Shown here piece after piece: positions 63,047-63,540 of a stretch of DNA of 64,000 nucleotides. A program made the position numbers and the translations under genes. The notes under the pieces were generated by a model. It saw nothing but the letters and a program-made list of their open reading frames with translations, had not been told where the DNA came from and ran no database searches. Every line of letters begins with the position of its first letter. Within the stretch, counting starts at the first letter, position 1. The DNA is from Sipunculus nudus (Eukaryota; Annelida; Sipuncula; Golfingiida; Sipunculidae). Location: positions 36,967,558 through 37,031,557 of the forward strand of contig CM049310.1 of assembly GCA_026874595.1 (NCBI GenBank). The letters run 5' to 3'.

Positions 63047-63079
<33 letters not shown>
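63047..63079. repeat. (TA)n microsatellite, TRIM target
   Basis: The TA tract is interrupted by the TRIM and resumes at 63494-63533. Confidence 0.9.
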
Positions 63080-63083
<4 letters not shown>

Positions 63084-63224
63084 ACCGGACACACAAAAGC
63101 GTTCCTACTGGCCTTGCTAGTGAAGCTTGCTTTATTAGCGAAGCGGTAGAACGTCTGACTTGTGTGTCACAGGTTACGGGTTCGAACCCACATTCGGGCC
63201 TGGTTACTATTTTCACCCGTTACA
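63080..63224 (+). mobile_element. TRIM 5' LTR (145 bp) with tRNA-like A and B boxes
   Basis: Starts TGTAACCGGACAC and ends CACCCGTTACA (TG..CA, 6-bp inverted termini). By eye it is identical over 145 bp to 63349-63493. It contains tagcgaagcgg (63136-63146), a good pol III A box, and ggttcgaaccc (63179-63189), a good B box 43 bp on. The sequence between resembles a tRNA anticodon arm. Confidence 0.9.
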
Positions 63225-63348
63225 ATGGTGGCAGCGGTGGGATCCGGGGAGTTGGTGTCGTGGCATGATGCCCCACCCAGTTCACGTGTGTGACCCCCGG
63301 GATAGATCCCACGTTCTGGGGACAGAACGTCCTCGAAGAGGGGGTGAA
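63225..63348 (+). mobile_element. TRIM internal region with polypurine tract
   Basis: Only 124 bp, non-coding, from the primer-binding site to a polypurine tract (gaagagggggtgaa, 63335-63348) that abuts the 3' LTR. With no coding capacity it must depend on another element's enzymes. Confidence 0.85.
63226..63243 (+). promoter_or_regulatory. TRIM primer-binding site, complementary to tRNA-Leu
   Basis: TGGTGGCAGCGGTGGGAT lies one base after the 5' LTR. It is the exact complement of the last 18 nt of a eukaryotic tRNA-Leu (…ATCCCACCGCTGCCA plus CCA, from memory of human tRNA-Leu-AAG). This is the classic minus-strand priming site of LTR retrotransposons. Confidence 0.8.
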
Positions 63349-63493
63349 TGTAACCGGACACACAAAAGCGTTCCTACTGGCCTTGCTAGTGAAGCTTGCT
63401 TTATTAGCGAAGCGGTAGAACGTCTGACTTGTGTGTCACAGGTTACGGGTTCGAACCCACATTCGGGCCTGGTTACTATTTTCACCCGTTACA
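63349..63493 (+). mobile_element. TRIM 3' LTR (145 bp)
   Basis: Identical to the 5' LTR as read. Followed directly by tatata, matching the tata that precedes the 5' LTR: a 4- or 6-bp target duplication, not decidable inside (TA)n. The whole element is 414 bp. Confidence 0.9.
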
Positions 63494-63540
63494 TATATAT
63501 ATATATATATTTATATATATTTATATATATATATTGCCAG

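Follow-up and report, generated by a model that had tools for sequence, protein, structure and literature searches.

A young family of gene-less LTR retrotransposons of the Helenus kind, with tRNA-like boxes in the LTRs and a preference for TA-repeat targets

The name Helenus was introduced in 2024 for TRIMs whose LTRs are tRNA-derived; such elements were described from a plant, from fungi and from six phyla of animals (Kojima 2024, PMC10886601), and the name also occurs twice in a 2026 meeting report (PMC12859917). A Gypsy element is the probable helper suggested for Helenus in animals, and the function of the pol III promoter was left unproven (PMC10886601). The present locus lies in a 64,000-nucleotide stretch of DNA, hereafter the window. 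An earlier note on the window had pointed to a miniature LTR element with a tRNA-like promoter and suggested that such an element in an animal would be a parallel invention to the Cassandra elements of plants. This claim of novelty fell, since Helenus had already been described in 2024, bivalves included (PMC10886601). The kind is a known one, namely Helenus.

The element consists of two 145-bp LTRs and a 124-bp internal region, 414 bp in total, at positions 63080-63493 of the window. Its parts are as follows.

63076..63079, + strand: left target-site duplication (TSD), TATA, from flank comparison; length ambiguous in a TA repeat
63080..63224, + strand: 5' LTR, TG..CA, 145 bp, a 100% direct repeat of 63349-63493
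63081..63125, + strand: foldback arm 1 of the 5' LTR (63350-63394 in the 3' LTR), from RNA fold and self-alignment
63130..63177, + strand: foldback arm 2 of the 5' LTR, containing the A box (63399-63446 in the 3' LTR), from RNA fold and self-alignment
63136..63146, + strand: tRNA-like A box TAGCGAAGCGG of the 5' LTR (63405-63415 in the 3' LTR), from a consensus scan
63179..63189, + strand: B box GGTTCGAACCC of the 5' LTR (63448-63458 in the 3' LTR), from a consensus scan
63210..63213, + strand: TTTT, candidate pol III terminator, with a second copy at 63479-63482
63225..63348, + strand: internal region, 124 bp, gene-less, delimited by the repeat boundaries
63226..63243, + strand: primer-binding site (PBS), 18 nt, TGGTGGCAGCGGTGGGAT, complement of the tRNA-Leu 3' end with CCA
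63335..63348, + strand: polypurine tract (PPT) with the nucleotides adjoining the 3' LTR, PPT-like GAAGAGGGGGTGAA, from the sequence
63349..63493, + strand: 3' LTR, 145 bp, 0 differences from the 5' LTR
63494..63497, + strand: right TSD, TATA, from flank comparison

The LTR starts with TGTAACC and ends with CCGTTACA; in outline it reads TGTAACCGG...CACCCGTTACA. Most of what the earlier note had read from the letters stood up: the identical TG..CA LTRs, the PPT and, within each LTR, an A box and a B box spaced by 43 bp. The PBS, which it had assigned to tRNA-Leu, is complementary over 18/18 positions to the 3' terminus of tRNA-Leu genes from the same genome with CCA added, and the match stops before position 58. 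The label of a gene-less TRIM was likewise upheld by the short direct repeats, the PBS, the PPT and a Pfam search of the ORF crossing the internal region, which gave no match.

We searched the source genome (G000, 1.43 Gb) with the 414-bp element and scored the best 40 of 850 first-look candidates. These gave 47 matches with 94-100% identity, 44 of which covered at least 407 of the 414 bases. The 40 loci holding the matches and 5 further loci made up the family sample of 45, the 40 supplying 84 LTRs. Mollusc haemocyanin had no match in this genome, but it had none in any of 14 control genomes, and the result carries no weight on taxonomy. The element belongs to a young, dispersed family. Over the 37 loci with two LTRs, the LTRs of a pair differed by 1.3% on average and nine pairs were identical; together with the identical LTRs in the window, this bears out the very recent insertion proposed earlier. 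Solo LTRs were found at three of the five further loci. Of the 40 loci, three (L017, L028 and L036) were clean tandem arrays, each with its three or four LTRs in LTR-INT-LTR-INT-LTR register, and three more (L013, L038 and L040) were rearranged. An exact PBS was present in 39 of the 45 internal regions, and a PPT of like form also in 39 of the 45. A pattern for the LTR-PBS junction had 143 exact matches in the genome, and its reversed control had none. By hand count, 56 of the 100 listed among these 143 matches had a TRIM-type spacer (A in 32, AA in 24), one of them being the tRNA-scar locus described below. The other 44 of the 100 were mixed: 21 belonged to the TTACATTGG class, and the rest included at least one older TRIM relative (L140).

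The arrays, the tRNA-like A and B boxes and the TA repeats that flank many copies would also suit a tandemly duplicated tRNA-derived SINE, in which the internal region is a spacer and the LTR features are accidental. The earlier note had named copies without PBS and PPT, or arbitrary head-to-tail arrays, as the sign of such a SINE. What we found instead is that the sampled copies mostly keep the PBS, the PPT and 4-bp TSDs, and that the clean arrays hold the LTR-INT-LTR register; therefore the family is not a tandem SINE. The TG..CA tips, the solo LTRs and a primer-tRNA scar that stands in PBS register also argue against the SINE explanation, which we regard as extremely improbable.

Two sets of variant loci were seen besides. 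The internal region of the TRIM copies L048 and L043 is 15-16 bp longer, possibly marking a subfamily. Four loci near contig ends (L103-L106, on C4, C8, C12 and C15) share one TRIM-like internal region and are also identical in the left flank, which is not an LTR; this looks like a subtelomeric duplication carrying a recombinant TRIM.

We consider it very likely that the element is a TRIM of the Helenus kind, an LTR retrotransposon that is not autonomous, with the following life cycle. RNA polymerase III would start the RNA at the tRNA-like A and B boxes of the 5' LTR, and the transcript would pass the first TTTT and end at or close to the one in the 3' LTR. A tRNA-Leu(IAG) would anneal to the 18-nt PBS and prime minus-strand DNA, and the PPT would prime plus-strand DNA. 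Integrase supplied in trans, presumably by a Ty3/Gypsy-type element, would trim the ends, and the cDNA would be inserted with a 4-bp duplication, preferably at TATA and TA repeats.

Consensus A-B pairs 30-75 bp apart occurred twice in the 64-kb window, exactly in the two LTRs, and in none of 100 order-1 simulated windows. Across the 84 family LTRs, the A box was intact in 83, the B box in 82 and the TTTT 3' of the B box in 76; AATAAA or ATTAAA occurred in none. The tRNA-like stretch, which begins seven bases ahead of the A box and runs to an acceptor-like end, aligned with tRNA-Lys and tRNA-Met at a z of 7.1. Molluscan Helenus elements are shown beside tRNA-Lys in a figure legend (Kojima 2024, PMC10886601). 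A tRNA fold, for which the earlier note had suggested checking the A-to-B segment, was not found: ARAGORN reported 0, and none of 31 Rfam matches (E up to 10) was to a tRNA family. On these results we rejected a true tRNA gene, and six loci of a second family, introduced below, were also without a tRNA family (E up to 1).

Judged from these signals, RNA polymerase III probably starts the RNA from the A and B boxes of the 5' LTR. The kept TTTT and the lack of AATAAA and ATTAAA fit an arrangement in which every LTR has its own start and stop signals for pol III, as described for Cassandra (PMC10886601). The difficulty is also the same: full-length pol III RNA would need read-through, because the TTTT after the B box should stop pol III within the 5' LTR. 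This TTTT therefore counts in favor of transcription by RNA polymerase II, with the boxes as a harmless remnant that a SINE or tRNA insertion left in an old LTR. Nor is the missing AATAAA peculiar to the TRIM, since the 334-bp LTR of the L142 family, presumably transcribed by pol II, also lacks it and has AGTAAA only. On the other hand, the boxes are intact in nearly all 84 LTRs, although these LTRs are young and most of their sites are conserved, and they are still recognisable in the diverged second family. Moreover, the absence of AATAAA and ATTAAA from all TRIM LTRs contrasts with AATAAA within 160 nt upstream of the PBS in 12 of 15 non-TRIM loci with the same tRNA-Leu site. We therefore hold pol II transcription to be rather unlikely and prefer a pol III start. 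With copies as young and as nearly identical as those of the TRIM, the use of pol III by animal LTR elements becomes directly testable.

The LTR has a further property, a strong foldback. Taken whole as RNA it folded at -58.2 kcal/mol (z -5.8), and none of 200 shuffles was as low. LTR positions 2-46 aligned with the reverse complement of about 51-98 with a score of 19, against a maximum of 15 in 2000 shuffles. By this alignment and fold, the LTR amounts in large part to an imperfect inverted repeat of the tRNA-like half that it contains. For the foldback alignment, 38 LTRs were entered (36 of the 84 from the 40 loci, plus two of L052), giving 36 distinct LTRs. Paired cells made up 98.4% over these 36, the same as in column shuffles and above slid partners, and one pair had changed on both sides against 0.6 expected. 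Covariation was thus no higher than shuffled and gives no support for a function of the foldback. The LTRs of the second family (14 compared) folded less strongly, with z between -0.3 and -3.7 over 60 mononucleotide shuffles. One joint reading, which we consider unlikely, would go further. The 5' half of the LTR would be the inverted tRNA-like half, and the 5' arm of R would pair with the arm that lies in U3 of the 3' LTR and aid strand transfer. R would run from about LTR position 40-57 to TTTT, with the RNA ends held together. Promoter, terminator and strand-transfer aid would then come from one captured tRNA, with tRNA-Leu(IAG) as the primer and its inosine readable as G at one scar.

That scar lies on C3 (L017:1286-1345 = G000:C3:93869177-93869236, with L053 and L054). 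After the last LTR of the L017 array, AA is followed by 58 nt complementary to mature tRNA-Leu, spanning it from CCA back to about position 27. We recounted 29 tRNA-Leu genes among 39 non-scar matches scored, from 66 candidates. Over a match of 55-56 nt, the genomic genes differ from the scar only at the first anticodon base: base 34 is A in 15 of the 29 genes, T in the other 14, and G in the scar. CCA is present in the scar and is encoded by 0 of the 29 genes. Inosine is copied as G, and the copy ends beside tRNA position 26, which we take to be a site often dimethylated. In cultured cells (Vero) and in virions made there, A34 of tRNA-Leu(AAG) is inosine at more than 90% (PMC13191261). According to the same source, plus-strand synthesis usually halts at m1A58, giving an 18-nt PBS, and continues if A58 is unmodified (PMC13191261); the TRIM's PBS match ends exactly at this stop. 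The C3 scar reads as a reverse-transcribed mature tRNA-Leu primer, with G34 as an inosine read as G, and as plus-strand DNA that was extended by copying part of the primer before being joined to other DNA.

Since the scar is a single locus and G34 could come from a point mutation or an assembly error, we also considered a tRNA-Leu pseudogene beside which the TRIM happened to land. Such a chance neighbor would, however, have to abut the LTR exactly at the place of the primer complement (AA, then TGG), contain the CCA that none of the 29 recounted genes encodes, show the expected inosine change and end next to position 26. We regard the pseudogene as very unlikely and retain the reading as a primer copy. 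Within the open literature searched we found no paper on inosine together with the tRNA primer and PBS of an LTR retrotransposon. The scar suggests a cheap way to learn the priming mature tRNA of an uncultured element: sequence beside LTRs can be inspected for CCA, for changes of the inosine type and for stops at modified bases.

Gypsy sequence stands both on the far side of the scar and upstream of the array, in pieces that are 99.6% alike over 1246 bp and in opposite orientation; the upstream piece has gag, RT, RNase H and integrase domains. The order at the C3 junction is a Gypsy leader, about 16 nt of the TRIM PPT end, the TRIM array, the tRNA-Leu copy (CCA, G34) and an inverted Gypsy polymerase piece. 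We take this Gypsy as the joining partner, and its role as helper was not accepted because its own primer site differs: its LTR end (L053, C3) is followed by TGGCGCAGCCTGCAGG and not by the Leu site, and adjacency alone had suggested the role. The Gypsy gag ORF (L053:2907-4307) contains an RNA recognition motif, then a PNMA-type capsid match and a CCHC knuckle. Elsewhere, at G000:C5:52594020-52635907, tRNA-Leu genes with AAG and TAG anticodons form a tandem cluster of units of about 1.6 kb.

Other candidate helpers were sought with the exact 18-nt Leu site and a non-T six positions upstream, a pattern chosen to exclude most TRIM copies. It fitted 81 genome places, 23 of which were fetched; 8 were TRIM variants or recombinants, and the others were the 15 non-TRIM loci mentioned above. 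The leaders of 14 PBS-Leu loci aligned with the TRIM within the shuffle range, and no PBS-Leu family seen shares more with it than the PBS and the LTR tips. Two LTR families with gag or pol domains, L110 and L142, have the same 18-nt PBS, and further PBS-Leu loci look alike. The L110 family has the LTR tip CGGTTACA and an RT-RNaseH-integrase ORF; we did not accept it as helper: four right flanks were not TA repeats, and homology ran on for more than 1.6 kb without reaching an LTR start from which a TSD could be read. The L142 family (L134-L137 and L141-L148) is abundant, with LTRs of 334-335 bp, the same tip as the TRIM (CGTTACA), gag, protease and integrase pieces, and a 4-bp TSD in 3 of 3 pairs. 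It was not accepted either: its LTR is no more similar to that of the TRIM than shuffles are (alignment score 11 against a mean of 10.7), and its targets, ATAC and ATAT, are absent among the 28 TRIM duplications.

These duplications were counted over 37 copies, the rearranged L013, L038 and L040 being left out of the 40 loci. A 4-bp TSD was found in 28 of the 37 and one of 3 or 5 bp in none. Over all 45 loci, 30 had a clean 4-bp TSD, 5 had one that was clean after an extra AA at one end, and 10 had none. Mispaired flanks, used as a control, matched in 31% of cases. Because TATA is common enough for mispaired flanks to match, the evidential weight rests on the 11 of the 30 clean TSDs that are not TATA. 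The duplicated sequence was TATA in 17 of the 28 copies, and stretches of (TA)4 or longer contained 13 of their 28 sites, compared with 1.1% TATA and 0.65% TA-repeat bases in the window, a rough background only. Among the sampled copies, which are the best-scoring ones, there is a strong preference for TATA/(TA)n targets. The window copy itself sits in a TA repeat, and its TSD can be read as 4, 6, 8 or 10 bp because its flanks are a TA microsatellite. The extra AA at five loci consists of the same two bases that adjoin the LTR in uncut cDNA and might fit an integrase that failed to trim one end, a weak reading because all five loci lie in TA repeats.

An old LTR fragment at L007:2410-2569 led to the second, Helenus-like family (L085-L098), for which the best 40 of 1716 first-look candidates were scored and 14 places fetched; it is apparently more numerous than the TRIM family. 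Its LTR of about 156 bp, TGTTACGG...CGTAACA, has a like core, CGCTAGTGAAGCTTGCTTTTCTAGCGAAGCGG, and the same order of boxes, and a TTTT follows the B box by about 16 nt in 9 of 14 pattern-picked LTRs. Its tRNA-like stretch, taken as a composite row, aligned with tRNAs less well than that of the TRIM, reaching a best z of 4.0, with -1.2 for tRNA-Met. Four-bp TSDs were readable at three loci (GAAT, ATAT and ACAG), and L089 had none. The PBS is of the TGGGGGCTCGTCC type, which we take to be that of tRNA-Pro, and AAGAGGGGGTG precedes the LTR. Related LTRs in one genome thus sit on two different primer sites, which agrees with the primer switching argued for Helenus (Kojima 2024, PMC10886601).

Among the known systems, Steamer and Steamer-like elements resemble the TRIM in an LTR that begins TGTAAC and in a Leu-tRNA PBS. 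However, Steamer-like elements code for proteins (a mussel relative has 4758 bp), unlike the gene-less TRIM, and Steamer has an LTR of 177 bp and a different Leu site, TGGTGTCAGAAG. The biv-TRIM of bivalves shares tandem arrays and solo repeats with this family but has repeats of 202-218 bp and an inner domain of 77-80 bp, where the present element has 145 and 124 bp; its PPT is mostly GGGGAGA, here GAGGGGGTGAA, and the part of the report consulted gives no clear PBS and no tRNA promoter (Satovic 2019, PMC6934838). Cassandra similarly has a small-RNA pol III promoter in its LTR and keeps the terminators, and pol III transcripts are reported for it; its promoter is, however, that of 5S rRNA and not of a tRNA (PMC10886601). 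No 5S family was among the 31 Rfam matches of our element up to E=10.

Helenus, with its 51 bivalve families, was compared here by its published description and agrees with the element in these features: LTRs with tRNA-like A and B boxes, a PBS, a PPT and no genes, a length of 311-1263 bp that includes our 414 bp, 4-bp TSDs in animals, solo LTRs and tandem arrays, and a tRNA thought to be non-functional (PMC10886601). Its bivalve PBS list holds Lys, His, Ile, Pro, Glu and Ser, in contrast to the tRNA-Leu of the present family, and Leu sites are given for wasps and for vertebrates. The sections consulted describe neither TA-repeat targeting nor a foldback LTR nor a primer scar for Helenus (PMC10886601). 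As far as we checked, five features are new: the tRNA-Leu PBS relative to the bivalve list, the strong TATA/(TA)n targeting, the LTR that for the most part repeats its tRNA-like half in imperfect inverted form, the C3 copy with an apparent reverse-transcribed tRNA-Leu after the last LTR, and the co-resident family with a similar LTR core and another primer site. The TRIM family thereby tests the duplications, target choice and primer of a class that rests on one bioinformatic paper in the literature searched, and with the second family it shows that members of this class within one genome share an LTR core yet use different primer sites.
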